Shown here in pieces: positions 20,339 to 36,217 of a stretch of 64,000 nucleotides of DNA (position 1 is its first letter; each line of letters begins with the position of its first letter). The stretch is taken from the NCBI GenBank assembly GCA_030066975.1, contig JASJAO010000005.1, positions 1-64,000 on the forward strand, written 5' to 3'. The notes under the pieces are model-generated. The model had not been told where the DNA came from and made no database searches. It saw only the letters and a program-made list of their open reading frames with translations. Origin of the DNA: Henriciella sp. (GTDB taxonomy: Bacteria; Pseudomonadota; Alphaproteobacteria; Caulobacterales; Hyphomonadaceae). The translations under genes were made by a program, and so were the position numbers.

Positions 20339-21090
20339 GCGGCTTGCTCCTCATCTCCAGGACTTGGGCCTGGTTCCGCCTCGGCCCCGACCAGAAGCTC
20401 CACCGCATACGCCTCAAGCACCCGAAAGCGCTCAAACACGTCGGCATCACCATCAGCGACGCTCTCGGCAATCTTCTGTGCGAACATGTTCCAACCGGCG
20501 CGAAAGGTCTCGTCCAAGATCGCCCGAACATCTCCGGCGCGGCTATCATCCTTGAACATGGCGGCAATCCGCTCTGACGCTGGGCCGATTTGGGCCCGGT
20601 GTAGCGCCTTGCCTTCCGCGATCGCATTGGCGAGAGCGGCTTGCACAGACGCGACCGGGACAAGTTGTCCGTTGGCTTCGAGCAGTCTTCGCTGAAGCTC
20701 GAGCGCTTGGAGGTGCGCCTTGGCCTTGGTCGGATCCTTTGGAACACCGCGTTCATCACGCTCAAGCACCGCAGAACGATTTGAACCTACGAGTGGTTCG
20801 TCTTTCGGGCCCGCCGGTTGAACCTGAACTTGTCCGCTCGGCATGATCTGCCCAGCCTCACCGGCGTGCAGCTGACGCTGGTAGTCGTCGCAATAGCGCG
20901 AGAACATCTGCGCGGCGTCGATCCACAATGTCCGGCCGGACTTTCGAGCCAGGTCTGTGTACCCATCGCGCCTGGCGAGGCGACTGATGGTCGAGAGACC
21001 GACCGTGACCCCGTGCTTGGCGAAGTAGGTGACCGTCTCTTTGCCGGTGAGCCAGCTGTCCGGAATCTCTGAAGCAACGGCGTCTGACAT
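20335..21090 (-). CDS. Terminase small subunit (Nu1-like)
   Basis: Encodes 251 residues from the ATG at 21090, preceded by GGAGG ten bases upstream. The frame is open further upstream to 21450, but that part crosses the repeat-rich gap and is rejected. Residues 12-62 form a winged-helix-like DNA-binding domain (WLTGKETVTYFAKHGVTVGLSTISRLARRDGYTD then WIDAAQMF), as in lambda Nu1. A helical segment follows (KAHLQALELQRRLLEANG). The acidic C-terminus (EPGPSPGDEEQAA) probably contacts the large subunit. It recognises cos and recruits the motor; the GTTGC repeats upstream are a candidate binding region. Confidence 0.8.
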   Translation of the reverse strand: MSDAVASEIPDSWLTGKETVTYFAKHGVTVGLSTISRLARRDGYTDLARKSGRTLWIDAAQMFSRYCDDYQRQLHAGEAGQIMPSGQVQVQPAGPKDEPLVGSNRSAVLERDERGVPKDPTKAKAHLQALELQRRLLEANGQLVPVASVQAALANAIAEGKALHRAQIGPASERIAAMFKDDSRAGDVRAILDETFRAGWNMFAQKIAESVADGDADVFERFRVLEAYAVELLVGAEAEPGPSPGDEEQAA

Positions 21091-21105
21091 GGGTGCAGGA
21101 CCTCC

Positions 21106-21253
21106 GTTGCAGGTTAGTTGCAGGCGGGTCCTATAGTTGCAGCGATGGTTGCAGGTGTTTCGAAATTTCCGCACTGGAAATCCAAAACGCGCTACGCGCC
21201 CCCCGTATTGTTTTGGGTTTGGGAAGGACCCGAAAAGTTGCGACGAAAGTTGC
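21106..21253 (+). repeat. GTTGC boxes upstream of the small terminase (candidate cos/packaging region)
   Basis: Four GTTGCAG boxes on the plus strand (21106, 21117, 21136, 21148) and two AAAGTTGC boxes (GTTGC at 21237 and 21249). Spacings are 11, 19, 12 and 12 bp. They fall in the 229-bp gap 21091-21319 directly before the terminase genes, where lambda keeps cosN and its terminase-binding R sites. No other gene is seen in the gap. Confidence 0.5.
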
Positions 21254-21319
21254 CGTGCAAGTTTCCGATGGTGGCGTTCGTCCCCGATTCTCACTTCCCG
21301 GTCAACCCCCACTCCCGGT

Positions 21320-22492
21320 TCACCGCCCCCGATTGACCCGACCCGCGACTGCCTCCAGCCCCGCCACCATTGAGATTTGAAGCACTTGAAGAATATCTGA
21401 AATTCTTCCTCCGATATGCTTGCGAGCGGCTTCCTCGACACCAAACCCACCCCGAATCACCGCCATTGCCGCCAGTCCGCAGCCCTCACGCCCCGAATCA
21501 ATCCCGGCCTGTTCTGCCGCATTGAACAGCTCGAGCCAGACCTCACCGACCCGCCGCCGCGCGTCCACCAGATCGCTCAGCCCGCCATCATGGCCCGGCC
21601 TCACGCCCTGCCCGACCCGCTCGGCAAAGCCGCCATAGGTCTCTACCCCGCAGGGAATGTCGTCCTCGCCCACCTTGTCGACCACCACCTGTTCGAACGT
21701 GCCACGCCGCACCGCGCGCCAGACCGTCACCCGGCCATCACCATCACCGGCATGCCCGGACACGCCGCCGCCGGAGCGCGCCACAGCCGCCTCATCCATC
21801 GCCAACAGTGCCTGCGCCGTGCGATAGTGCGCCTCAGTCAGATAGTTGGATCGCTGGACGATCAGAGCGAACCGCTCCCGGACCTGCCGTTTGGACGCCT
21901 TACGCGCCTGGGCACAGCTCGCCAGCTCGGCCTCAACATCCGCCAGCTCGCTTTCAAGCCGATTGCGCGCCCGGCCCAGCTCACCAATCCGAACCGCGGA
22001 CTTCGGATCACCGGGATCGCAGCGCTTCAAGGACTTTCGGCTTCCCTCGATCGCGGCCAGCAGCTTCTTGCGCTTCGCCTCGAGGTCCCTGCGCCGACGG
22101 TCTTCCCGTTTGGCCACCCGCTCCAGCGCCATACGTCCCGACTGTTCGCCTGTCAGGGCGAGCAAAGTCGATTTCAGCGATCGAATCTGGACACGCTTAT
22201 CCCCTTGCAGCTCGGCAGGCGCGCCTTCATCGACCATCTCGCGCAAACGCCGCTCGGCCCGAAACAGTTCGGCTTCAACTTGCGCAAGCTTCGCCTCCCG
22301 TGACATCCGCCGCGGTCGGCGTTTCGGGCGTTTGGCCTTGACCTCCACCGCCTCATTCGCAGCGCTGTGATCCGGCGTCGCCCGCCCAGCCACCGTGCGC
22401 TTCTGCGCCGCCATCTCGGTCTGAAACGGGGTCAGGTCATGCTCCGGCAGAAACCGCTGAGCGGTCAAAATTCCTTTGCGTCGTCGCGGCAT
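21320..22492 (-). CDS. Coiled-coil phage protein, function unknown
   Basis: Encodes 390 residues, beginning MPRRRKGILTAQRFLPEHDLTPFQTEM. Very basic N-terminus (KAKRPKRRPRRMSREAK), then a long charged coiled coil to residue about 200, then a Gly-rich segment and a C-terminal helical part AVIRGGFGVEEAARKHIGGRISDILQVLQ that could be helix-turn-helix. It follows the O-like gene by 2 bp and is the last gene before the putative cos region and terminase. That is the slot of a late regulator (Q position) or replication partner (P position), but no signature supports either. Confidence 0.55.
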   Translation of the reverse strand: MPRRRKGILTAQRFLPEHDLTPFQTEMAAQKRTVAGRATPDHSAANEAVEVKAKRPKRRPRRMSREAKLAQVEAELFRAERRLREMVDEGAPAELQGDKRVQIRSLKSTLLALTGEQSGRMALERVAKREDRRRRDLEAKRKKLLAAIEGSRKSLKRCDPGDPKSAVRIGELGRARNRLESELADVEAELASCAQARKASKRQVRERFALIVQRSNYLTEAHYRTAQALLAMDEAAVARSGGGVSGHAGDGDGRVTVWRAVRRGTFEQVVVDKVGEDDIPCGVETYGGFAERVGQGVRPGHDGGLSDLVDARRRVGEVWLELFNAAEQAGIDSGREGCGLAAMAVIRGGFGVEEAARKHIGGRISDILQVLQISMVAGLEAVAGRVNRGR

Positions 22493-22494
22493 CG

Positions 22495-23472
22495 TTAGCG
22501 CTCCTCACGTTTGAAAACAGGTTCTGAAACAGAGTGTTGCGAGGCCTCCGGCAGCGGCTTTGCCCCATGGGCATGACGGCCTCGATCGGTGATCATCAGC
22601 CCGAGATAGCCATGATCCATCGCCACACTCAGCAGCGTGTTGAAGTCTGTCCGGTTGAGCTGATCGCACTGTTTCGTGCTGCCTGCCCGGATCACCAGCC
22701 AGCCATCCAGGGTCGCCAGATGGCACCCGAGCAGGCGTTCCGCGAGGTCGGCGCGGCGTTGACCATTCAGCCGCGAGAGCCCGGCAAGCGACCGCACATC
22801 GAGCGCCGCCTCGCGCATGGGCGTGCGCGTAAGGGGATTATCCTTGAGGAGTATATCCTTATAGGGGGGTGTGGGGGGTGTGGTCTCAAAGTCCAGGTTC
22901 GCGGTCTCAGAGTCATAGTTTGTGGTCTCAAAGTCATAGTTTGGCGTCACTTGTCCACAGACCCGCTCCGGCCAGCCGGTCATGGCCTCTGACAGCGCGT
23001 TCAGCGCCTTGTCCATGCCCCGTGCCGCCGCCCGTTGATCCTCTGCCAGAAGCGCCGCGCGCAGGCTGTGAATGACGCCGCTGCAGGCCGCCTCCGACGC
23101 GGGCGCACCAAGATGGCCACCTGCCCGGATGGCCCGCGTGGCCCCGCCGCCAATCCGACGCCGCGCGGTCGCCACGGCCCCGGCCACGATCTGGATCCGC
23201 TCCCAGTGCACGCGATAGGTCCAGATCACACCAGGCCCGCCCTTTGGTCGACGCGGGATTACCAGCAGCTGGTCGCTCGCCGCGCCACACAGCCGCTCAA
23301 ACGCCCGGCTCAGGGTGCGGTTCTCATAGCGCGCCACCCCGCTCAGCGTCGCGCGGCTCACGGCCGAGAAGAGCGTGCGCCGGTCGGTATAGGTCGCGAG
23401 CGCCTGCAACAGCGAGGCTTCAACCGCGCCCTCGAGCAGGCAGGCTTTTACCGCCTCAGACAGGTCCCGCAT
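22495..23472 (-). CDS. Replication initiator-like phage protein (O-like) with internal repeats
   Basis: Encodes 325 residues. The N-terminal 100 residues have a winged-helix look (LLQALATYTDRRTLFSAVSRATLSGVARYENRTLSRAFERL) and a strand region VIWTYRVHWERIQI. A low-complexity hinge near residues 177-205 holds three copies of a seven-residue unit (NYDFETT, NYDSETA, NLDFETT), followed by TPPYKDILLKD, typical of the hinge in phage O/DnaD-type initiators. A C-terminal helical domain follows. The repeated peptide is encoded by three 21-bp DNA repeats, as in lambda O where ori lies inside the gene. Function inferred from architecture. Confidence 0.55.
   Translation of the reverse strand: MRDLSEAVKACLLEGAVEASLLQALATYTDRRTLFSAVSRATLSGVARYENRTLSRAFERLCGAASDQLLVIPRRPKGGPGVIWTYRVHWERIQIVAGAVATARRRIGGGATRAIRAGGHLGAPASEAACSGVIHSLRAALLAEDQRAAARGMDKALNALSEAMTGWPERVCGQVTPNYDFETTNYDSETANLDFETTPPTPPYKDILLKDNPLTRTPMREAALDVRSLAGLSRLNGQRRADLAERLLGCHLATLDGWLVIRAGSTKQCDQLNRTDFNTLLSVAMDHGYLGLMITDRGRHAHGAKPLPEASQHSVSEPVFKREER
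22880..22942 (+). repeat. Three tandem 21-bp iterons (putative prophage replication origin)
   Basis: Copies at 22880-22900, 22901-22921 and 22922-22942, consensus GTGGTCTCAAAGTC then ATAGTTT; copies 2 and 3 differ at two positions and copy 1 diverges mainly near its end. They lie inside the O-like gene. A purine-rich G tract (ataGGGGGGtgtGGGGGG) and an A+T-rich segment (about 22838-22864) lie immediately to the left. This layout of iterons plus a melting region inside the initiator gene matches lambdoid origins. Confidence 0.65.
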
Positions 23473-23583
23473 CGCGTGCCCCCGCAGCTAAATTTTGACA
23501 TGAAAAAGCGCCGTCCGAAAAGCGAACCGCGTTCGTATTTTTGATCATAAAACTCTCATTCACGCCTTCCCGGCGCGTGAAAC

Positions 23584-25059: not shown

Positions 25060-25307
25060 TGTGCGAGTCCTCCGCTATGCGGAGGCGCGCCAGCAGGTTC
25101 CGTATCGGCGCTCTGCGCCTCACATGAACCGAGCTCAGGGCTGAGTCCCAACAAGCCGACGGTAACCGCAACAGAACTTCGCGTTAGCCATTCGTAAACA
25201 GGTCCTGCCGACCCCACCACATAAGCCTTCTCGCGGGGGTCATACATCATTCGTTCGGGAAATCGCTCAGAGAAGCAGGTGAGGTCCTTGCTGGCCTGCT
25301 TAGTCAT
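25056..25307 (-). CDS. Hypothetical phage early protein
   Basis: Encodes 83 residues from the ATG at 25307 (MTKQASKDLTCFSERFPERMMYDPREKAYVVG), which overlaps the GapR-like stop by 8 bp. A mildly hydrophobic stretch (SVAVTVGLLGLSPEL) is too short and polar for a certain membrane helix. The Pro/Gly-rich end (EPAGAPPHSGGLAQ) looks disordered. No family recognised; supported as a gene by the coupled overlaps. Confidence 0.45.
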   Translation of the reverse strand: MTKQASKDLTCFSERFPERMMYDPREKAYVVGSAGPVYEWLTRSSVAVTVGLLGLSPELGSCEAQSADTEPAGAPPHSGGLAQ

Positions 25308-25758
25308 TGCCGGCGACCTCCCAATAGATCTCAAAGAGGTCGAGCTGCTCTCGCCGATCATGCGGGTCGAGCTTGCGCTCGCGGATGACGCGTCGCAGAG
25401 CTTTCGTGTCGCACCCGACGGATTTCGCTTCGCCGTAAACGTCCTTGATCTGTTCAGCGACTTCAGCTTTCTCCTCTTCGAGGTTCTCGATCCTGGAAAC
25501 GAAATTGCAAAGCCGCTCCCTGGCCGCCTTTGTTAGACCGTTCGCGGAGACTTTATCTGCCACTTGCTTCAACTCCTTATCGGTTAACGTGACCGGCTTT
25601 CTGCCCGGCATTGTGATCGTCACCGTGCCATCTGCATTGTCGCTTACCGGGTCCTTTTTTCGACCCGCACGCTTCTTTCTCGGCGCCCCGCTGTCTTTGA
25701 CGGGCGGATAATCAGCGGCCATGTCGACGCCGCCATCAGACGGAGGTTGCCGGGTCAT
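25300..25758 (-). CDS. GapR-like (DUF2312) nucleoid protein with N-terminal extension
   Basis: Encodes 152 residues. Residues about 85-150 match GapR/DUF2312: FVSRIENLEEEKAEVAEQIKDVYGEAKSVGCDTKALRRVIRERKLD followed by a helix ending LDLFEIY. GapR proteins clamp overtwisted DNA ahead of forks in alphaproteobacteria and stimulate topoisomerases. The chromosomal proteins are about 90 residues; this one has an extra basic, Lys/Arg-rich region (APRKKRAGRKKDPVSD) and a small strand domain (GTVTITMPGRKPVTLT). ATGA overlap with the HNH gene. Possible roles: support of phage replication or interference with host GapR. Confidence 0.85.
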   Translation of the reverse strand: MTRQPPSDGGVDMAADYPPVKDSGAPRKKRAGRKKDPVSDNADGTVTITMPGRKPVTLTDKELKQVADKVSANGLTKAARERLCNFVSRIENLEEEKAEVAEQIKDVYGEAKSVGCDTKALRRVIRERKLDPHDRREQLDLFEIYWEVAGND

Positions 25759-27774: not shown

Positions 27775-28484
27775 CAGCTCGCCCGCCTGTCTAATCTTGT
27801 CTGTTTCTCCAGCGCGGCGGCGTCGGCCTGTTGCTTGCGACGCAAAGCCTCGCCTTTGCCCAGATCCCAGAGCCCGCCAAAGCCCTTGAACGGCACCGGC
27901 GTTGGGGTTTGCAGCGCCGGAGCGCGAAAGCACCAGACCCAACGCCGCGTCTTGCGCGCCGCATCCGGGGCGGACCAGTCGCCAACCGGCACGATCGATT
28001 TGCCGGAAAAACTCTGCCAGTCGCCGCGATAATAGTGACCCATACTGTCGACCCGCCACGCGCTCGCGCAGCGCGGTTCGCCCTGCAGACCATGCAGCCC
28101 GCCGAGAATGTACCCGCCTGCCAGAACCGCCGAACCGATGATTCGCCCTGCATGCCGGTGAAGCAGATCATCAAGACCCGCGCGCCATGCATCCGGATCG
28201 CGATTGGCGGCGAGCGCAATCAGATTGCGGCAGGACGTATCTTCTTTGATCGGTGTAATGCGAACCGCATGCTGGCCCCCGTGCAGCGCGATCCGCTTGC
28301 CCATCAACCGATTGGGCGGGGCGAGCGAGGTCGCATGGCCCCACATCTTGCCTGCCACGATGAGACCCGCCAGCGGTGCTGGCAAGGTCAGCGCCCAGGC
28401 CCGGTCCGGATCCGACGCATTCGGCACATAGGAGATCCCATTCGGATCACGCGGCCCGGGTTCACGCTTGGAAAATGCAGGCAC
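27774..28484 (-). CDS. ASCH/PUA-like phage protein
   Basis: Encodes 236 residues. It starts with GTG at 28484, preceded by GGAGG seven bases away, and overlaps the methyltransferase gene by 23 bp. Residues about 30-70 (RAWALTLPAPLAGLIVAGKMWGHATSLAPPNRLMGKRIALHGGQ) have the ASCH/PUA-like opening: a strand, P-x-A-x-L-I-x-x-G-x-K, and a strand ending in H. A Trp-rich stretch (RWVWCFRAPALQTPTP) lies further on, plus a charged C-terminal helix. It is the second ASCH-like protein of this operon. Role unknown. Confidence 0.55.
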   Translation of the reverse strand: MPAFSKREPGPRDPNGISYVPNASDPDRAWALTLPAPLAGLIVAGKMWGHATSLAPPNRLMGKRIALHGGQHAVRITPIKEDTSCRNLIALAANRDPDAWRAGLDDLLHRHAGRIIGSAVLAGGYILGGLHGLQGEPRCASAWRVDSMGHYYRGDWQSFSGKSIVPVGDWSAPDAARKTRRWVWCFRAPALQTPTPVPFKGFGGLWDLGKGEALRRKQQADAAALEKQTRLDRRAS

Positions 28485-29154
28485 GGCCCCCTCCTTCCAT
28501 CGTTAAACGGCGAAAGACGAGCGGCTGCGGGACCCGCTCCCAGCGAAACCAGGCATAGTCAAAAAAGCCAGATTGTTTGCGCCGCTCGAAATTATCGCGG
28601 TGCAGCGTGGCGCGCTCGCGAAACGGGAACACGCCGGTCAGTTCCGGGCCATCAACCAGCCGGTCGCGATGGGCACATTTTGACCCGCCATGCATGAACT
28701 TGGACGGCAGCAACATATAGACGCGCGGCGCGAGGCTTAACGCATGGACCACAAAGTCCGCCGCGAGTGACGGATCACCCGCCCGGCCAGTGCCATAGGG
28801 CGGGTTGGTCAGGATGGCAAAATCATCTACGCCGACAAACGTCATCACATCTCGCCGCCTGAGCGAGAGGAAATCGAGCCCCCAGCGGGTCCGCGCGCCA
28901 TTGCGCAGCCCTTTCCAGCGCTTGGCATAATTAAACTTGTCCGAAGCGATCACCCGGTGACCAAACCGCTGCAGCTCGCGCACGATCGCGCCGGGCCCGC
29001 AGGCAGGCTCCACAATGGTTCTTCCGGGCGTGCGCAGCCAGGGATCGGCATCAATCAGGGCCCAGACCATGGGCGGCAAGGTCTCATGCAGCTGTGGATC
29101 GCCTGCGCCATAATGGTTGGCCTTGGCTGCAAAACGCGCTGTAGAGGGCCTCAT
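28462..29154 (-). CDS. DNA N6-adenine methyltransferase (NPPY type)
   Basis: Encodes 230 residues from the ATG at 29154, which overlaps the upstream stop (ATGA). SAM-binding motif I EPACGPGAIVRELQRFG (residues 49-65), then VIASDKF, and the catalytic NPPYG at 117-121 followed by TGRAGDPSLAADFVVHAL. This is the gamma-type order (motif I before NPPY) of adenine methyltransferases. No target-recognition domain is visible, so specificity is unknown. A small early gene with no partner endonuclease, so it may be an anti-restriction methylase. It is the second adenine methylase of the prophage. Confidence 0.8.
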   Translation of the reverse strand: MRPSTARFAAKANHYGAGDPQLHETLPPMVWALIDADPWLRTPGRTIVEPACGPGAIVRELQRFGHRVIASDKFNYAKRWKGLRNGARTRWGLDFLSLRRRDVMTFVGVDDFAILTNPPYGTGRAGDPSLAADFVVHALSLAPRVYMLLPSKFMHGGSKCAHRDRLVDGPELTGVFPFRERATLHRDNFERRKQSGFFDYAWFRWERVPQPLVFRRLTMEGGGRACIFQA

Positions 29155-29297
29155 GACACACGCCCCCGGGGATGGTGATGGGTGCGGTCGCGCGGCAGCG
29201 GATGGCGGACCTCCCGGCGCACCCGGCGCTCGCACACACGCAGGGCGCTGCACTTGGCCCGGGTCGGGCAATCGCTGCAGCCCCCCTGCCCGCTCAT
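29151..29297 (-). CDS. Small Cys-rich phage protein
   Basis: Encodes 48 residues from the ATG at 29297 (MSGQGGCSDCPTRAKCSALRVCERRVRREV). Four cysteines in the order C-x2-C-x5-C-x5-C, then a basic, His-rich tail (HPLPRDRTHHHPRGRVS). Start and stop both overlap neighbours as ATGA, strong support for real translation despite its size. Possible zinc knuckle or Fe-S site; function unknown. Confidence 0.55.
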   Translation of the reverse strand: MSGQGGCSDCPTRAKCSALRVCERRVRREVRHPLPRDRTHHHPRGRVS

Positions 29298-29743
29298 GGA
29301 CGGCCCCGCGATTCCATATCGCTGACAAAGGCGCGGAGCCGGTCCTGCATCTTGACCAGGGCTGCGAGACATTTGTCGCGCTCCGCTGGCGTCAACGCGC
29401 CATCTTCAGCACTTTTGGTGACCTCACTCAGCGTTCCGCCAAAAGCCTCGGTGAGCCCGGACAGATGTGAGAGCAAGGCCGCGCGCGGGGCCTCGCCCAC
29501 TTCCAGACGCGAATCATAAAAGTCGCGCAGCGGCGTGCCCCCGCCCTGATCCATGCAGGCAATGTCCAGCTTGATCGCATCATCAAGCCGGATCCCGTCC
29601 GGCTTGTTCGGGTTGGCCGCATCGGCCAGCACGTAGCGATTGCTTTTACCAATCAGCAGCGCCGCATTCGTGACCCCGCCCAACGGCGCACAGGCCCGCG
29701 CGATTGCATCTTCCAGACTGTTTGGCGCGCGCTTCACCGTCAT
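29294..29743 (-). CDS. CII-like phage regulator (putative)
   Basis: Encodes 149 residues from the ATG at 29743 (MTVKRAPNSLEDAIARACAPLGGVTNAALLIGKSNRYVLADAANPNKPDGIRLDDAIKLD). The first 60 residues have the pattern of CII-type regulators of P2/Mu-like phages (A-A-x-x-L-G-K-S x-x x-L x-x-x-N P, then L-x-L-x-D-A). The rest is an acidic helical region, and an Asp/Glu-rich tail is consistent with a regulator. The second gene of the leftward early operon. Family assignment tentative. Confidence 0.5.
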   Translation of the reverse strand: MTVKRAPNSLEDAIARACAPLGGVTNAALLIGKSNRYVLADAANPNKPDGIRLDDAIKLDIACMDQGGGTPLRDFYDSRLEVGEAPRAALLSHLSGLTEAFGGTLSEVTKSAEDGALTPAERDKCLAALVKMQDRLRAFVSDMESRGRP

Positions 29744-30057
29744 GACCCGACCCCACAAATGGCCGAGGATTGGGGTCGTGCGGCCTCGCCCGGTGTGACA
29801 GGCTCGCCGCCATGACCAATATTCTGTTCTTTCATCCACGGCGCGGCGACCTCAGCCAGCGTCAGACCTGTGGCCTCGCAGATGCCGATAGCAATCTTCA
29901 AACTGGGCGGGTTTTTGCCATTCGCGATGCGCGACACAGAACTTCGCGATCGCTGGAGCCGTTTCGCCAGAGCGCTTCCCCTGCCCTCTTCCGCCTTTAT
30001 CCAAAGCGCCAGAGGCCAAAGCCGCGAGTCCGAATCTTGTTGCACAGTTTGAAACAT
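29740..30057 (-). CDS. Cro-like helix-turn-helix regulator
   Basis: Encodes 105 residues. Residues about 25-73 (SALAKRLQRSRSSVSRIANGKNPPSLKIAIGICEATGLTLAEV) are a clear XRE/Cro helix-turn-helix. It is divergent from the rightward XRE repressor, the classic lysis/lysogeny switch layout. The ATG at 30057 has no good ribosome site; a TATAAT on the minus strand (30074-30079) lies 16 bp upstream, so the message may be nearly leaderless. Degenerate copies of the operator palindrome overlap its start. First gene of the leftward lytic operon, so probably Cro-like. Confidence 0.75.
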   Translation of the reverse strand: MFQTVQQDSDSRLWPLALWIKAEEGRGSALAKRLQRSRSSVSRIANGKNPPSLKIAIGICEATGLTLAEVAAPWMKEQNIGHGGEPVTPGEAARPQSSAICGVGS

Positions 30058-30083
30058 GGGAGCAGTGTTTGATTATATGCAAC
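30039..30083. promoter_or_regulatory. Operator-like half-palindromes in the divergent switch region
   Basis: GTTGCACAGTTTGAAAC (30039-30055) and GTTTGATTATATGCAAC (30067-30083) are degenerate versions of the palindrome GTTGCATAnTATGCAAC found at 30868 and 30901; the right half TATGCAAC is exact at 30076-30083. Centres are 28 bp apart. A CAGTGTT/AACACTG inverted repeat also spans 30063-30090. The region holds the start of the Cro-like gene and the presumed divergent promoters. Confidence 0.55.
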
Positions 30084-30133
30084 AACACTGTCAAGCAGAA
30101 TTTGCAAATGGTGCTCACGACGCATCAGAGAGC

Positions 30134-30538
30134 ATGCGCATAATATCCAACATGAAACGGGATTCTCGACCTTACGGACGGATGCGCCTCTTTCTCGCGG
30201 AATGGCGGGAGTATCGGGCCCTGACTCAGGACCAGCTTAGCGAAACCACAGGCATCGCCAAAAGCACGATCTCGCGACTTGAAAATCGAGAGATGCCTGT
30301 CAATGAACGCCACATCTACAAGTTTGCGGACGCCTTGCGTTGCGAGCCGATCGATTTGCTGACCTGGAACCCGCTTAGCGATCGCCCCCTGCTCAATCTG
30401 TTCCAGAGCATTCCCGACACCAAACGCCGTGAAGCCCGCCGGATCCTGCAAATTCTGGCCGAGCCGGACCAGACCCCCTACGAAATCGAACCAGCTGCCG
30501 ACACCGCGGCGATCGAACAGGACGAGCGCCATGGCTAA
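30134..30538 (+). CDS. XRE-family lysogeny repressor (CI-like)
   Basis: Encodes 134 residues from the ATG at 30134 (MRIISNMKRDSRPYGRMRLFLAEWREYRALTQ); an ATG at 30152 is equally plausible and the ATG at 30056 is unlikely because it overlaps the divergent gene start. The helix-turn-helix RALTQDQLSETTGIAKSTISRLENREMPVNERHIYKFADALRCEPIDLL is textbook HTH_3. The C-terminus (ARRILQILAEPDQTPYEIEP) has no LexA-type protease domain, so induction would not be by simple autocleavage. Divergent from a Cro-like gene and followed by a coupled membrane protein. Likely ligand: the GTTGCATAnTATGCAAC palindromes. Confidence 0.75.
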   Translation: MRIISNMKRDSRPYGRMRLFLAEWREYRALTQDQLSETTGIAKSTISRLENREMPVNERHIYKFADALRCEPIDLLTWNPLSDRPLLNLFQSIPDTKRREARRILQILAEPDQTPYEIEPAADTAAIEQDERHG

Positions 30539-30867: not shown

Positions 30868-30917
30868 GTTGCATAGTATGCAACTTTTCTCTTGCGCACT
30901 GTTGCATACTATGCAAT
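30868..30917. promoter_or_regulatory. Two 17-bp operator palindromes upstream of the ParB-like operon
   Basis: GTTGCATAGTATGCAAC (30868-30884) is a perfect palindrome around its central base. GTTGCATACTATGCAAT (30901-30917) matches at 16 of 17 positions. Centres are 33 bp apart, close to three helical turns, so bound dimers would lie on one DNA face. They lie 25 bp before the first gene of the rightward operon. Candidate binders: the XRE repressor (degenerate copies in its own control region) or the ParB-like protein. Confidence 0.8.
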
Positions 30918-30941: not shown

Positions 30942-31187
30942 ATGTTGAAATCGACAAACCCGACACGCGCCGAGCGCCCGCAATCCCCCACCCAGGGACG
31001 CGCCGCCACGAGCATCTGGCATCAGATCAAAGTGGCGGCGCACACACTGGCCCGGGCCCGGGGCGCGGCGCGCGCCGAGGCGGCGACGCGCTTGCTGACC
31101 CTGCAGGCCCGCGCCGGACAGACTTACCCAAAACGCCAAAAAGCGAACCCGGTTCGCCGTACCCCGAAAGGACACACACCCGAATGA
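30942..31187 (+). CDS. Small basic protein, first gene of the ParB-like operon
   Basis: Encodes 81 residues from the ATG at 30942, with ACGGAG as ribosome site; a GTG at 30933 is an alternative. Very basic (RAERPQSPTQGRAATSIWHQIKVAAHTLARARGAARAEAATRLLTLQARAG ... KRQKANPVRRTPKG) and probably partly helical. Its stop overlaps the ATG of the ParB-like gene (ATGA). The 3' end contains the GCGAACC palindrome (31143-31157). Perhaps DNA-binding; no family. Confidence 0.5.
   Translation: MLKSTNPTRAERPQSPTQGRAATSIWHQIKVAAHTLARARGAARAEAATRLLTLQARAGQTYPKRQKANPVRRTPKGHTPE
31136..31157 (-). repeat. Palindrome GCGAACCGGGTTCGC with T-tract (copy 2)
   Basis: On the minus strand the same 22-bp string as at 14021-14042, a 7+1+7 palindrome followed by TTTTTGG. 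Here it lies in the last codons of the small basic gene, 27 bp before the ParB-like start. A relaxed third copy (CGAACGCGGTTCG with CTTTTCGG) is on the minus strand at 23515-23535. Confidence 0.8.
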
Positions 31188-33151
31188 CGACTGTGAGTTT
31201 CGACCCGGACCTTCTGAGCGCCGTGCACCATCACGGCCCGGACGGCAAGCCGACAGAGATCGCCGCAAGCGCCGGAATCGCCCGCAACAATTATGCGCGG
31301 GCGGTCAAAACCGCGCGCACCAACAAGTTTATTGAACCCGATCGCCTCGTCCTGACCCCCCTAGGGGCGAGGCTGGCGGGGATTGAGACCCTCCCGGGAT
31401 CGCGCGAGACCACATTGCGTCTCGACCAGATCCAAAAAAGCGATCTTAATCCCCGCCGCTCTTTTGACGAAGGCAAGCTCGCAGAGCTCGCCGACGCGTT
31501 GCACGCCCAAGGCCAATTGCAGAACATTCTGGTCCGCCCGATCGCAGACGGCGGCGACCTGTATGAGATTGTGATCGGGGAGCGCCGCTTCCGCGCCATG
31601 ACCCTGCTTGCCGAAGATGGACGCTGGGCGAAGGATGCGCCGGTCAAGGTCGAAATTCGGACCCTGAGCGATATCGAGTTTCTCGACATTGCCATCATGG
31701 AGAACAATCAGCGCGAGGACATTCACCCGCTCGAGGAAGCCGACGCGATCGCACGACTGCAGGACCTGCGCCGCGCCGAAGGCGAGACGGGTAAAGAGAT
31801 TTGCGGCGAGATCGGGGAACGTCTCGGCCACACCACACGCTGGGCCCAGCAGCGCGTCCAGATCGCCCGCGATCTGTCGCCCGCCTGTCGACAGGCCTAT
31901 GCCGAGGGCGGCTTCACCAATTTCAAAACCGCTTTGCTGCTCAGCCGCCACGATCATGCAACCCAGGACGACGCCCTGGTCGCGATCACGCGCGGCTGGA
32001 ACCCACTGAACACGGTCGGCAAGGTCGAGGACTTCCTTGATCGCAAGGCTGCGCCGGTCGGAAAACAGCCTTTCGGGCTGCAGGACTATCTGGATCGCGG
32101 CGGCAGGCTGATCGAGCCGGAAGAGGAAGACGAGCCGCAGCGCTTTGCTGATCGCGGCCTCGCTGAAACCCTGACCGAGGAATGGATCCAGGCCGAGCTC
32201 GAGACCCTCACCGACAAGCACGGCCTGCAGGCCGACCCAATCCGGGCGAGCTATTGGAACGATTGGGACTACACGAAGGCCACCAAAAAGACGCCCCGCG
32301 CGCTCTGCCGGGCCTTTATCGAGCACGATCAGAACACGTTGGCGACCAAGATCCGCGCGCCGATCGTTGAGAAAGCCGCGCTGGAGCGGTATAAAAGGGC
32401 CGAAGAGGCCAAAGCCGCCAAGGCCGCGCTCGCCGAAAAGACCGGCGCGAGCGAGAAAGACACCGCCACACCGCTCAGCCGCAGCCAGTACAAGGCAGGC
32501 GCTGAGGCCCGCACCCGCGCGCTGCAGAGCACAATCGCTGAGCTGCCGCATGTCGCGATCGCACTCGCCGTGATCGGCCTCTTGCCGCGTCAGAATGCGG
32601 GTTATGGCAACAGCCTGTGCCGGATCCGCTCTGACTGGCCCACGGGCGAGGCAGGCCAGATCGGTTTCGGCAACCAGCTTGAAGCCTTGCTGTCGGACAC
32701 CCCGATCAAAGGGATCAGCCCGAAAGGCGAAATCACCGATCGGGCCACCGCCTTGAACAGCCTGCTCACCGCGAGCGACAAATTGCTGCCCCAGCGCCTG
32801 TTCGCCGCCATGATCGCCGATCGCCTGATCGATTGCGACGACCAGGCGCGTGCCGGCTCAAATGACGAGGCCGTGATCCTTGCCAAGGCAGGCCTGATCG
32901 AAGACCCGGGCGGGGCGATGGTCGATGCCGCCCACGCCAAACGCTACACAAGGGCTCAGCAAAGCGCCGCGATCGACGCCTATAACCTCCCCCTCGACAC
33001 CGTCGCCCATGCCGAACGCAAGAAAGGCGAGGCCGACAAGGTCTTCGCCGAGGCCTGGCCCAAAGACGAAACCCCGCTCGAGGCCCGCTTCCTGGACACA
33101 GCCAGCGTGCGAAAGCTCGAAGCCAAACTGCTCGCGAGGAAGCCGATATGA
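31184..33151 (+). CDS. Large ParB-like protein (ParB/Srx N-domain)
   Basis: Encodes 655 residues from the ATG at 31184 (MTTVSFDPDLLSAVHHHGPDG). Residues 1-65 look like a small DNA-binding region (TEIAASAGIARNNYARAVKTARTNKF). Residues about 78-180 are the ParB/Spo0J N-domain: LRLDQIQKSDLNPRRSFDEGKLAELADALHAQGQLQNILVRPI, then YEIVIGERRFRAMTLL and IMENNQREDIHPLEEADAI. GERRFRA is the CTP-binding box of ParB proteins. A helix-turn-helix-like region follows (IGERLGHTTRWAQQRVQIA), then a long Ala/Lys-rich C-terminal part of unknown fold. There is no ParA neighbour. It shares an operon with a PAPS-reductase-type protein. Confidence 0.85.
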   Translation: MTTVSFDPDLLSAVHHHGPDGKPTEIAASAGIARNNYARAVKTARTNKFIEPDRLVLTPLGARLAGIETLPGSRETTLRLDQIQKSDLNPRRSFDEGKLAELADALHAQGQLQNILVRPIADGGDLYEIVIGERRFRAMTLLAEDGRWAKDAPVKVEIRTLSDIEFLDIAIMENNQREDIHPLEEADAIARLQDLRRAEGETGKEICGEIGERLGHTTRWAQQRVQIARDLSPACRQAYAEGGFTNFKTALLLSRHDHATQDDALVAITRGWNPLNTVGKVEDFLDRKAAPVGKQPFGLQDYLDRGGRLIEPEEEDEPQRFADRGLAETLTEEWIQAELETLTDKHGLQADPIRASYWNDWDYTKATKKTPRALCRAFIEHDQNTLATKIRAPIVEKAALERYKRAEEAKAAKAALAEKTGASEKDTATPLSRSQYKAGAEARTRALQSTIAELPHVAIALAVIGLLPRQNAGYGNSLCRIRSDWPTGEAGQIGFGNQLEALLSDTPIKGISPKGEITDRATALNSLLTASDKLLPQRLFAAMIADRLIDCDDQARAGSNDEAVILAKAGLIEDPGGAMVDAAHAKRYTRAQQSAAIDAYNLPLDTVAHAERKKGEADKVFAEAWPKDETPLEARFLDTASVRKLEAKLLARKPI

Positions 33152-33747
33152 GTGAAACGAGGATCGCCGCCGCGATGCAACGCATGCTCAGCGCCTACGA
33201 AACCAATGTGCGCCAGAACACCAAAGGGGTCGCCCCGGACCTCATCACCAAGATGATCGAAGAAGATCCTGCTGTGGTGGAAGCGCGCGCCGCCCTAAAG
33301 GCCGCGAACGGCGAGGGGGCGATGGGTGAACACATGCAACAACATTATGTAGAGTTCTTAAGTCCCGGCACCTTCATGTCAGAATCTAGTAAGCGCGAAA
33401 TCGCGAGTTGGGACACCGCCGAAGCGATCAGGATGATGTCCGGCATCGTCGAGAGACACGGTACGCGGCCGTACGGGTTTCGCTTCTCCACGAGGGCGCG
33501 AGACCCCAACGATCTTGACAGCCGTGAAGTGGCGCGAAGCCATTTCTACTATGTCAATTGCGATGTGCTCACAGCCGAAGAGGTTCTGGCCGAAACCAAC
33601 GCAGAAAATCGCATTATGCGGGCAAACGTCGAAAACAACGGTTACAAGCGCATTGCGCGAACCCGTACAGGCTGGCTCGGCCACTTCCCGATGAACGATG
33701 CCGACGAGGTCATCGAAGCCCCGGAACTGGCGAAAGAAACACCATGA
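33148..33747 (+). CDS. Hypothetical phage protein
   Basis: Encodes 199 residues, ATGA-coupled to the ParB-like gene. Contains helical stretches (TRIAAAMQRMLSAYETNVRQN) and a middle segment YGFRFSTRARDPNDLDSREVARSHFYYVNCDVLTAEEVLAE. Soluble. No motif recognised. Located between ParB-like and PP-loop genes, so a link to that module is possible. Confidence 0.55.
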   Translation: MSETRIAAAMQRMLSAYETNVRQNTKGVAPDLITKMIEEDPAVVEARAALKAANGEGAMGEHMQQHYVEFLSPGTFMSESSKREIASWDTAEAIRMMSGIVERHGTRPYGFRFSTRARDPNDLDSREVARSHFYYVNCDVLTAEEVLAETNAENRIMRANVENNGYKRIARTRTGWLGHFPMNDADEVIEAPELAKETP

Positions 33748-34028
33748 CTGATCCATCAAGTCGGATCAAGAAGACGTTCGAAGAGACCGAGACCTATTTT
33801 CGGGGTCAATACAAGGGCTACACGATCGAGATCGAGCGCGAGGAAATTCACCCACTCATAGGGTACGACTACGACGATCCGGAAATCCTATTCAGCATTC
33901 ATGTGTACAATCCTGAGATCAGTTTCGGGACGCTCTACGATGGCTACGCCCCCAAACATGTCGAGACGATGCGTCAAGCGAAGTCTGAGGCTTTGCGCGG
34001 GTCTCAATTGGTAAAGGAAACACCATGA
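33744..34028 (+). CDS. Hypothetical phage protein
   Basis: Encodes 94 residues from the ATG at 33744 overlapping the previous stop. Begins MTDPSSRIKKTFEETETYFRGQYKGYTIEIEREEIHPLIGYDYDDPEILFSIHVYNPE. Rich in Tyr and acidic residues, probably a small alpha/beta fold. Its stop again overlaps the next ATG (ATGA). Both this gene and the previous one end in KETP, a minor curiosity. Function unknown. Confidence 0.55.
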   Translation: MTDPSSRIKKTFEETETYFRGQYKGYTIEIEREEIHPLIGYDYDDPEILFSIHVYNPEISFGTLYDGYAPKHVETMRQAKSEALRGSQLVKETP

Positions 34029-34849
34029 CCCCGCTCGATCAGGCAAAGAGAATCCTGGTGTCGGCGATCGATACCGTACATCCGACCCACATTGTGAGCA
34101 TGGTCAGCGGCGGCAAGGACAGCGCCTGCTCACACGCGGTCGCTGTCGAGCTGCTTAGCGGCATGGGCCGCAGAATTGACCTCGTGATCCATGGCAACAC
34201 GCGGTGCGGTATCCAAGAAACCAGCGAGTTCGTTGCGAAGACTTATGGCCATGGGCCACATGACTTTGCGATCGCCGACGCTGGGACCGCATACGAGGAC
34301 TATGTCATGAGAAAAGGGTTCTTTGGGCGAGGGATCACGGGCCATGCTTTTGCGTATCGGATACTCAAAGCGGCCCCTTTCCGAAGAACCATCAGCGCAA
34401 AGATTCGAAATCGCCGACGCAATATCCGTATCCTGCTTCTCAACGGCGCGAGACGAGACGAGAGCGAGAATCGCGCCAAGACGCTAAGATGGTTGAGACC
34501 GGACCCTGCGGCGCGCGGAAACGTCTGGACAAGCCACCTTTATGACTGGAGCGCCGAACAACGGGACGCTTACTTGGCCGAGCGCAGTATCCCGATCAAT
34601 CCAGTTGCGGTCCAGCTTTGTCGCTCCGGCGAATGCATGTGCGGAACCATGCAAAGCCGACAGGAACGCGCAGAAGCCGCCGCTCTTTATCCTAAGTGGG
34701 GAGCATGGCTAGATGAGCTCGAGGCTGAGTCTTTTCGGGTGCACGGCCTTCGCTGGGGCGAGTCCAGCAGCGAGCGCCGCGATCTGAGCCAGTTGGATTT
34801 GTTCCAACCTATGTGCAGTGATTGCGGCGCTGAGAAGCGAAATGTCTGA
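34025..34849 (+). CDS. PAPS reductase / DndC-type PP-loop ATPase family protein
   Basis: Encodes 274 residues. PP-loop SGGKDS at 28-33 (HIVSMVSGGKDSACSHAVAVELL), an HGNTRCGI strand (56-63), a GARRDESENRAKTL block (141-154) that equals the G-x-R-x-x-E-S motif of CysH/DndC relatives, and two Cys groups, C199/C204/C206 and C264/C267, which could hold a [4Fe-4S] cluster. CysH reduces PAPS in sulfate assimilation; DndC and SspD activate sulfur or adenylate DNA in phosphorothioation; IbrA-type proteins pair with ParB-like IbrB. Here no cysteine desulfurase is seen. The ParB-like neighbour supports an IbrA-like or DNA-modifying role. Confidence 0.8.
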   Translation: MTPLDQAKRILVSAIDTVHPTHIVSMVSGGKDSACSHAVAVELLSGMGRRIDLVIHGNTRCGIQETSEFVAKTYGHGPHDFAIADAGTAYEDYVMRKGFFGRGITGHAFAYRILKAAPFRRTISAKIRNRRRNIRILLLNGARRDESENRAKTLRWLRPDPAARGNVWTSHLYDWSAEQRDAYLAERSIPINPVAVQLCRSGECMCGTMQSRQERAEAAALYPKWGAWLDELEAESFRVHGLRWGESSSERRDLSQLDLFQPMCSDCGAEKRNV

Positions 34850-35231
34850 CCCCGCCCGTTCATTTGGGACACTGCTGACCTATCGGGAAGCCGCCGACAA
34901 GCTCGGCATCTCGGTTCGGGCGCTGCAATATCTCAAAGCAGACGGCACGCTGCCTTATGTGCAGAGCGGCAAGCGCGGGGTCCGTTTCTTGATCGATGAT
35001 CTGGACGCGTACATAGTGGCCTCCCGCCGCCAACGCAGCCCCGCCCCGCCCGCCAGGAAAGGCAGCCCCCCATGTCCATCTTCAAACGCGGAGCCATCTA
35101 CCATTACGACTTCCAATATCGTGGACAGCGGTATCGCGGCTCGACGGGTGAGACAACGAAACGCGCGGCGCAAGACGTCGAAGACAAAGAGCGCCGCAAA
35201 GCCAAGCTGGGCCGATCAACAACGCACCTGA
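34842..35231 (+). CDS. Excisionase / MerR-type recombination directionality factor
   Basis: Encodes 129 residues from the ATG at 34842. Residues 8-65 (FGTLLTYREAADKLGISVRALQYLKADGTLPYVQSGKRGVRFLIDDLDAYIVASR) form the winged helix of MerR/excisionase proteins (HTH_17). The remaining 64 residues, basic and Ser/Thr-rich, are encoded in a different frame over the first 160 bp of the integrase gene. Such xis-int overlap is known in lambda. It would bend DNA at the attachment site and favour excision. Overlaps the PP-loop gene by 8 bp. Confidence 0.8.
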   Translation: MSDPARSFGTLLTYREAADKLGISVRALQYLKADGTLPYVQSGKRGVRFLIDDLDAYIVASRRQRSPAPPARKGSPPCPSSNAEPSTITTSNIVDSGIAARRVRQRNARRKTSKTKSAAKPSWADQQRT

Positions 35232-36160
35232 CCCTTCGCGAGGCGGCGCTATCCTGGTGGGACCTGCACGCACAGTTTCTGAAATCTGCAGCAAACGTGG
35301 ATGAAGGCTTGAAGGTCTGCGATCGCGTACTCGGCTTTGACAAGCAATTGAGGGATCTCACCACGCGGGATCTGGTGGTCGCGGTCGCCAAACGCCGCGA
35401 GGAAGTCACCCAATATGGACGGCCACCCAGCAATGCAACCATCAATCGCGAAATCCCTTACATCATCCGGCCGATCCTCAACCACGCCGTTGATGTCCTG
35501 GGCGCAAAGGACGCCCCCAGCATATCGTGGAAAGCGGTGATCTTGACCAAACCCAAACCCAAACCGCGAGAATACAGCGCCGCCGAGATGAACGCGCTCC
35601 GTGACCACCTCCCAGCCCACCTGCACGCCTTACTGGACTTCTACACCGTGTATGGATGCCGCTGGAACGAGGCTTTCTTCCCGCTCAGCCATCTGGATAT
35701 CGAGGGCGGCCGGATCGCGCTGCGCCAGCGCAAGGGCGGCGACTGGCACTCCATTCCACTCACGGAATCCGACCGGCGCAAGTTTGCCGCCGCCAAATCC
35801 CGCGCGGAAGCGGCAGACCTCGACACGATCTGGTTTCGCGAGACATCCACTGGCGCGCTTGCCGCCATCACGCCACGCAGCTTTCAGCGCGCAATGCTGA
35901 AAGCCTTGAAGGATGCCGGGATAACAGACGCGCGCGCTGTACACGACTTCCGCCATCACGCCGCCATGCAGGCCATGCGCCGCTCCGGGGGCCGGATCGC
36001 GCCGGTCAGCAAGCTGCTCGGACACGAGTCCATTCAGACGACCCAGATCTATGCGCACGCCACAGAAGATGATGTGCGGGACATCCTACCGGACTCCCCA
36101 CAAAATCCCCACAATGAGCCAAGTGAAACCGATAAATATAAAGGCAAAACAAGTGGGTAG
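35072..36160 (+). CDS. Tyrosine recombinase integrase
   Basis: Encodes 362 residues. Begins MSIFKRGAIYHYDFQYRGQRYRGSTG, a DUF4102/AP2-like arm-binding part, then a SAM-like core-binding region (about 55-145). Catalytic residues are complete: R197 (YGCRWNEAFF), H291-x2-R294 (AVHDFRHHAA), H318 (LLGHESIQTT) and nucleophile Y327. The gene ends 11 bp before the tRNA-Leu fragment, so it is adjacent to the attachment site and points toward it. The first 160 bp overlap the excisionase. It integrates and excises the prophage. Confidence 0.95.
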   Translation: MSIFKRGAIYHYDFQYRGQRYRGSTGETTKRAAQDVEDKERRKAKLGRSTTHLTLREAALSWWDLHAQFLKSAANVDEGLKVCDRVLGFDKQLRDLTTRDLVVAVAKRREEVTQYGRPPSNATINREIPYIIRPILNHAVDVLGAKDAPSISWKAVILTKPKPKPREYSAAEMNALRDHLPAHLHALLDFYTVYGCRWNEAFFPLSHLDIEGGRIALRQRKGGDWHSIPLTESDRRKFAAAKSRAEAADLDTIWFRETSTGALAAITPRSFQRAMLKALKDAGITDARAVHDFRHHAAMQAMRRSGGRIAPVSKLLGHESIQTTQIYAHATEDDVRDILPDSPQNPHNEPSETDKYKGKTSG

Positions 36161-36171
36161 GCTTTAGGGGG

Positions 36172-36217
36172 ACCCAGAACCTAAATCTGGTGCGTCTACC
36201 AATTCCGCCACATCCGC
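36172..36217 (-). tRNA. Truncated tRNA-Leu(UAG), 5' half, at the prophage attachment site
   Basis: On the minus strand from 36217: acceptor 5' arm GCGGATG, D-arm GGCGGAATTGGTAGACGC, anticodon stem CCAGA, loop TTTAGGT (anticodon TAG, 36181-36183), stem TCTGG, then GTCC. The variable arm, T-arm and the matching 3' acceptor CATCCGC are absent; prophage sequence follows directly. The intact copy should be at the other prophage junction, outside this window, with its 5' half supplied by phage DNA. This junction is attR. The host side continues to tig, divergently. Confidence 0.85.

Follow-up and report, generated by a model that had tools for sequence, protein, structure and literature searches.

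Coupled ParB-type and PP-loop genes in a Henriciella prophage: probable neighbours rather than partners

Introduction

Phage genes annotated as cysH or 3'-phosphoadenosine 5'-phosphosulfate (PAPS) reductase are often counted as auxiliary metabolic genes of sulfur assimilation (PMC10434257, PMC8651126; articles are cited here by accession, on the basis of excerpts from each). For the CysH-like proteins of type IV-B CRISPR systems, nucleotide binding is described as kept and sulfonucleotide reduction as lost (PMC8175902). Relatives of BrxP and SspD have been described (PMC12839542), and ThiI, TilS and CysD are reported not to be close equivalents of DndC (PMC10853773). Mobile elements often carry orphan ParB proteins, and prophages encode 872 of 80,326 parB homologues (PMC12704722). 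Given these published orphan ParBs and phage PP-loop genes, the ParB-type gene and the PP-loop gene reported here are each of a known kind. The locus lies in a prophage at the start of contig JASJAO010000005.1 of Henriciella sp. (assembly GCA_030066975.1), of which we analysed positions 1 to 64,000 ("the window"), and it places a gene for a ParB-type protein and a gene for a PP-loop protein in one coupled run:

30942..31187, plus strand: 81-aa open reading frame (ORF) that opens the coupled run; no Pfam match
31184..33151, plus strand: P0001, orphan ParB-type protein, 655 aa; ParB_N domain and CTPase motifs, nothing matching the C-terminal half at E<=1e-3
33148..33747, plus strand: P0002, orphan protein, 199 aa; four libraries gave no family at E<=1e-3, no viral_contigs relative found
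33744..34028, plus strand: P0003, orphan protein, 94 aa; four libraries gave no family at E<=1e-3, no viral_contigs relative found
34025..34849, plus strand: P0004, PP-loop protein, 274 aa, PHROG 424-type "PAPS reductase"; SGGxDS and four invariant cysteines (204, 206, 264, 267)

Four-base ATGA start/stop overlaps join the five ORFs, and because of these overlaps we infer a shared transcript for P0001 to P0004. An earlier note, made from the sequence alone, had proposed that the run encodes an IbrB/IbrA- or Dnd-like module. Its description of the parts was borne out: a 655-residue ParB_N protein with a GERRFRA box, a PP-loop protein with SGGKDS, GARRDES and two cysteine groups, translational coupling at each start, and a prophage setting, for which we find an integrase (35072-36160) and terminase, portal, capsid and tail genes. 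Among the articles listed in searches on phage PAPS reductase, IbrAB, DndC, thiolation and KorB, titles and abstract openings contain no functional test of the P0004 family.

Distribution and gene neighbourhoods of the PP-loop family

The P0004 family travels without the ParB-type protein, and P0001 and P0004 are thus probably neighbours, not partners. Relatives of P0004 were found in 31 viral contigs (41-64% identity) and at 14 loci in a collection of 84,980 species genomes (42-64% identity); both counts are lower bounds, because the scans use exact peptide patterns. Six of the 14 genome loci are second copies of, or mostly the same DNA as, viral contigs. Altogether we compared 48 related loci (L002-L049), of which six are redundant and 42 distinct. 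Their flanks are unequal and some loci are short (e.g., L008). None of the 48 holds a relative of P0001, P0002 or P0003 by tblastn. Similarly, no ParB_N match above the cut-off occurs in any of 32 whole records with the P0004 family; one of them has a match with an E-value of 1.2e-5, which falls short of the curated cut-off and lies about 7.5 kb away from the PP-loop gene. None of the listed phage records with a P0001-like N-domain (30 listed out of 39) is among the 17 with the PP-loop protein. Co-conservation elsewhere was the earlier note's own test of its module, and the outcome refutes it, together with the suggestion that P0002 and P0003 (33148-34028) are further module parts. As far as these searches reach, the adjacency of P0001 to P0004 is specific to this prophage.

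The genes around the family are unlike from locus to locus. With a simple gene caller, which returned no PP-loop gene in L007, L028 and L046, the commonest neighbour cluster besides the PP-loop gene itself was present at 8 of 49 loci; L007 also fell outside the 36 loci of the neighbour scan. Among 127 neighbour proteins from 35 loci, integrase was the commonest Pfam family (three cases), followed by helicase, ResIII, HNH and DUF3799 with two each, and the top PHROG, of unknown function, was found four times. A conserved neighbour that might serve as a clue to the substrate was sought, and none is widely shared across loci.

The family is also scarce in the relatives of the host. Of 105 genomes in the host's family, 104 lack it, as do 371 of 372 sampled genomes of the class (E<=1e-12); in both sets the exception is the genome of the window itself, which indicates that P0004 is phage-borne and patchy and not a host gene. 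PHROG 424 is matched by 38 of 39 family members. One example, EVB98_041 of Rhizobium phage RHph_N3_2, is 61.6% identical to P0004; that phage differs from ours in that the 24.8 kb examined yielded no relative of P0001-P0003 and carry no ParB annotation, and in that no ParB_N match occurs in the whole record. Distant homologues with 29-31% identity are found in haloarchaeal and Arthrobacter viruses. The homologue in Haloferax tailed virus 1 (L034; 29.6% identity) retains the four cysteines, and a DNA methylase gene follows downstream of it with one small gene in between.

Relation of the PP-loop protein to CysH, CysD, DndC and IbrA

P0004 matches the Pfam family PAPS_reduct (E-value 1.5e-9, 38.6 bits, cut-off 22.5) and carries SGGKDS, GARRDES and cysteines at 199, 204 and 206 and at 264 and 267. 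Residues S28, G29, G30, D32 and S33 are invariant in 42 aligned family sequences, which together with the Rossmann-like fold of the model described below places the family in the PP-loop superfamily. C204, C206, C264 and C267 are kept in all 42 as well, forming a CxC and a C-terminal CxxC, and the family shares a G-R-ES-NR motif. ECGL is absent from P0004 and from every one of 41 relatives read to the stop codon. By comparison, ECGLH occurs in 17 of 19 CysH matches, duplicates included (those without it are L115 and L104). The host genome has its own cysH and cysD, and the host CysH has CC, CxxC and ECGLH.

In a maximum-likelihood tree with 13 CysH, 17 CysD, 5 DndC and 4 DUF3440 proteins, 19 family members form one clade (support 100/99) apart from the comparison proteins. 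The tree took 19 of the 41 distinct family rows, and second copies and several CysH and CysD rows were removed by name beforehand. P0004 does not group with housekeeping CysH; such a grouping is what the earlier note had named as counting against its proposal. Profile comparison with hhalign gave 95.7% for DndC (E-value 1e-8, residues 9-188) and an equal 95.7% for CysD (E-value 8.5e-9), followed by 86.8% for the host CysH and 69.9%, the lowest of the four, for the DUF3440 set; these scores are only roughly comparable, because CysH and CysD entered as single sequences. The likeness to CysD comprises the GARRDE motif and the hhalign score, whereas the four-cysteine set belongs to the phage family and the clade is separate. 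With CysH the likeness is one of fold, and P0004 differs in lacking ECGLH, in its ATP-type loop and in its separate clade.

IbrA carries a DUF3440 domain. No DUF3440 (PF11922) match was obtained in P0004 (E<=1) or in its own genome; as a control, the same model finds matches in 4 of 240 genomes of the class. The DndC model TIGR03183 has no match to P0004 (E<=1) and none in its genome at E<=1e-3. With DndC, SspD and BrxP, P0004 shares SGGKDS, the G-R-ES-NR motif and, by eye, a cysteine group at a similar place. Those proteins, however, have FGCWVCT where P0004 has CxC, and P0004 is shorter, falls in a separate clade and has no partner genes that we could find. PADLOC models gave a single match among the four operon genes, BrxP to P0004 (E-value 7.3e-7).

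An AlphaFold2 model of P0004 has a predicted local distance difference test (pLDDT) score of 84 overall. Its best fold matches are PAPS and adenosine 5'-phosphosulfate (APS) reductases (Z 15.7, root-mean-square deviation 3.6-4.0 Å over 189-196 residues), followed by ATP sulfurylase (Z 15.4, 2.9 Å, 167 residues), TilS (Z 14.7, 3.2 Å, 182 residues) and NcsA (Z 13.3, 3.6 Å, 181 residues), where rows differing by less than 1 Z are treated as tied. The 50 fold matches listed name no structure of DndC or SspD, although such a likeness may still exist. Searching the PDB by sequence with the family profile returned weak matches, and the two top rows, to interferon gamma, are spurious.

The ParB-type protein and its candidate sites

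P0001 matches ParB_N in Pfam (E-value 4e-17, 62.5 bits, cut-off 26.3) and TIGR00180 (84.1 bits, cut-off 58.45), and has GERRFRA at residue 132 and ENNQRED at residue 173. By its GERRxRA (C) and ENxQR (P) motifs and the TIGR00180 match, P0001 is an orphan canonical ParB and a predicted CTPase. The ParA-binding motif (L|F|I)G(K|R)G(L|F|I), as given in PMC12704722, is absent from P0001, and no ParA-like match was obtained among the window genes scanned, a subset of its ORFs, in agreement with the earlier note. Relatives in the PDB are Spo0J/ParB. Among the 30 matches listed, plasmid ParB proteins align over 43-62% of the length with 26.5-31.7% identity, and, among matches listed, large ParB proteins of E. 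coli plasmids have 28.5-30.0% identity. P0001 thus resembles orphan ParBs, KorB and large plasmid ParBs in its ParB_N domain, long C-terminal part and lack of a ParA motif, but differs from KorB and the plasmid ParBs in low identity, in its prophage location and in having candidate binding sites only. For comparison with IbrB we used a control from the same class, an ORF with DGFHR and a sub-threshold ParB_N match (E-value 0.033), which follows a DUF3440 gene at a distance of about 400 bp. BLASTP of P0001 against this control gave an E-value of 5.5.

Two palindromes that recur in the prophage, TTGCATASTATGCAA and GCGAACCSGGTTCGC, are candidate binding sites:

30869..30883, no strand: perfect 7-1-7 palindrome TTGCATAGTATGCAA; candidate operator, terminator-like, then TTTTCTCTT
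30902..30916, no strand: TTGCATACTATGCAA, the other copy of this palindrome; the spacing between the two is 33 bp, or roughly three turns of the helix
31143..31157, no strand: palindrome GCGAACCCGGTTCGC, a candidate parS/operator-like site that lies 26 bp ahead of the P0001 start codon
14021..14035, no strand: GCGAACCGGGTTCGC, exact repeat of the palindrome at 31143, within the prophage's head protease gene
23522..23536, no strand: imperfect third copy of that palindrome with 2 mismatches; ORF 22495-23472, on the minus strand, has it some 50 bp upstream

The TTGCATASTATGCAA pair precedes the coupled run, and the 3.57-Mb genome has exact sites at 30869 and 30902 only. Two further genome sites occur at 2 mismatches, while a reversed-pattern control gave one site, and the pair was not found in viral_contigs. 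For GCGAACCSGGTTCGC, the three matches compare with 0.37 expected, and none of 100 shuffles reached three. A repeated palindrome arm arose in none of 150 simulated windows. The KorB OB oligonucleotide (PMC11790492) contains, like the prophage sites, an odd palindrome with a central G/C (S).

Interpretation and rival explanations

What is firm is the standalone distribution of the P0004 family in the examined loci, its own clade, its lack of the CysH motif, its four invariant cysteines, and a canonical ParB without a ParA motif. We give about an even chance to the explanation that the run holds two separate cassettes on one prophage transcript, a standalone PP-loop enzyme and an orphan ParB clamp. 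The P0004 family would work alone or with host proteins. P0004 would split ATP and adenylate a nucleic-acid target, either phage DNA or tRNA; the four cysteines would hold a metal cluster, and sulfur from a host cysteine desulfurase would be passed on, with protected phage DNA or adjusted translation as the possible outcome. P0001 would be an orphan ParB-type CTPase clamp, probably KorB-like, that loads at the prophage palindromes and may regulate its own operon or prophage genes. The missing catalytic cysteine motif, the ATP-type loop, the four-cysteine set and the solo movement among unlike neighbours in combination point to nucleic-acid chemistry or counter-defence, and the "PAPS reductase" label looks wrong for this clade.

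Several points weigh against the explanation by two cassettes. The substrate of P0004 is one that we infer. The tail with C264 and C267 is modelled at a pLDDT of about 31, so the model lends no structural support to a shared metal site. A sister position of DndC in the tree is unsupported (83/38) and comes with a long-branch warning. The TTGCATA palindromes are terminator-like too, and they could just as well be sites for the XRE regulator at 30056-30538. Many of the 32 virus records are perhaps fragments, and the finding of no P0001, P0002 or P0003 relative in viral_contigs comes from exact peptide patterns, which reach close relatives only. ATGA coupling is also expected of a functional operon. 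Both superfamilies are also present together in other phages: in Psychrobacter phage Y8A, PF01507 (1,959-2,720) and PF02195 (6,521-7,132) genes lie within a few kb of each other (PMC10434257), and glacial phage scaffolds list IbrA/IbrB (PMC4490671).

The last two of these points also favour the module of the earlier note, in which ParB and PP-loop proteins would jointly modify DNA or control lysogeny genes. It is further favoured by the occurrence of both superfamilies together in IbrAB and Dnd systems, and by the distant profile similarity to DndC and BrxP. The two genes are nevertheless not co-conserved, in either the 48 loci or the 32 records. IbrAB does place PP-loop and ParB superfamilies side by side, but here DUF3440 is lacking, the clade is separate, the DUF3440 set gave the weakest hhalign score, and the ParB is canonical, not of the DGFHR type, and unlike the IbrB-like control. 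On the Dnd side the distant likeness stands, at a level about equal to that of CysD. A TIGR03183 match is missing, however, and the genes scanned, of which PADLOC models covered 14 prophage proteins as a subset of the ORFs, gave no DndD/E, SspB/C or desulfurase gene; for DndD/E and desulfurase the earlier note had itself remarked on this. We rejected the IbrAB/Dnd-like module on these co-conservation, domain and clade tests and regard it as clearly improbable. Of the proposal that the operon modifies DNA or acts in defence or regulation, a possible regulatory role of the ParB protein survives and the module does not. One tempting "module" thus drops off the list of candidate DNA-modification systems.

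A true PAPS/APS reductase, acting as an auxiliary metabolic gene for sulfate assimilation, would agree with the Pfam PAPS_reduct and PHROG 424 labels, with the best structural matches, with four cysteines reminiscent of APS reductase, and with the sulfur assimilation suggested for two distant archaeal-virus homologues in the excerpts of PMC8651126. We rejected it because ECGLH is absent and the clade is separate; SGGxDS also stands in place of the CysH loop and the host already has cysH and cysD, so that this explanation is very improbable. An ATP-type PP-loop enzyme that adenylates its target without adding sulfur, and that in phages could block host defence, is possible, if on the unlikely side. 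SGGxDS is present and the CysH catalytic cysteine absent, and a function of this sort has been put forward for the type IV-B CRISPR CysH-like protein (PMC8175902). Among the 127 neighbours there is also a Lar restriction-alleviation protein, as well as methylases and exonucleases, with no type present more than twice. The four invariant cysteines, however, point to a metal or sulfur site that such an enzyme would not need. The explanation by two cassettes can also be carried further, to a form that we consider rather unlikely. Here the phage "PAPS reductase" family would be a single-gene metal-cluster enzyme that uses sulfur donors of the host to thiolate or adenylate either phage DNA or host tRNA, and would therefore be a mislabelled auxiliary metabolic gene, while a ParB clamp at GCGAACCSGGTTCGC would exert long-range silencing on the prophage in the manner of KorB on plasmid RK2.

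Prophage context

The first 36 kb of the window are a tailed prophage, with matches to terminase, portal, protease, capsid, tape measure and tail fibre genes and an integrase at its end. Divergent phage regulators near 30056 lie to the left of the coupled plus-strand run, and the integrase lies to its right:

between 1806 and 20338: terminase, portal, protease, capsid and tail genes, from profile matches
34842..35231, plus strand: HTH_17 protein (Pfam HTH_17, E-value 2.1e-7)
35072..36160, plus strand: tyrosine integrase (Pfam E-value 7.4e-16; PHROG 1 E-value 7.8e-38)
36174..36217, minus strand: 5' part of tRNA-Leu(TAG), 44-bp attachment-site candidate, identical over 44 bp to contig C24:4753-4796

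The start of the HTH_17 ORF overlaps the end of P0004 by 8 bases, and its position suggests an excisionase-like protein. It also overlaps the integrase ORF by 160 nt in a different frame, which is long for a phage operon. The divergent helix-turn-helix regulators (29740-30057, minus strand; 30056-30538, plus strand) have called start codons that overlap in CATG. This leaves no promoter space, and at least one start probably lies further in.

Elsewhere in the prophage, an ORF at 25300-25758 (minus strand) encodes a GapR-like DNA-binding protein (Pfam E-value 2.4e-24); GapR is a nucleoid protein family. At 28462-29328 (minus strand) lies a DNA-methyltransferase-like ORF (PHROG 799, E-value 2.7e-21) with a partial match to the Mads protein mad2 (E-value 2.2e-6), and a Mads methylase-like match was the single PADLOC result for ten prophage genes other than the four of the operon. 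Three minus-strand ORFs of 325-390 aa (20335-23472) adjoin the terminase gene and have no PHROG match (E<=1e-3), above-cut-off Pfam match or PADLOC match. Contig C24 (7,974 bp) has a whole tRNA-Leu(tag) at 4712-4796, predicted with ARAGORN, that contains the 44 bp identical to the prophage end, and may represent either the opposite junction of the prophage or another element at this site. This tRNA gene overlaps the end of a 614-aa ORF that by eye resembles a serine recombinase.

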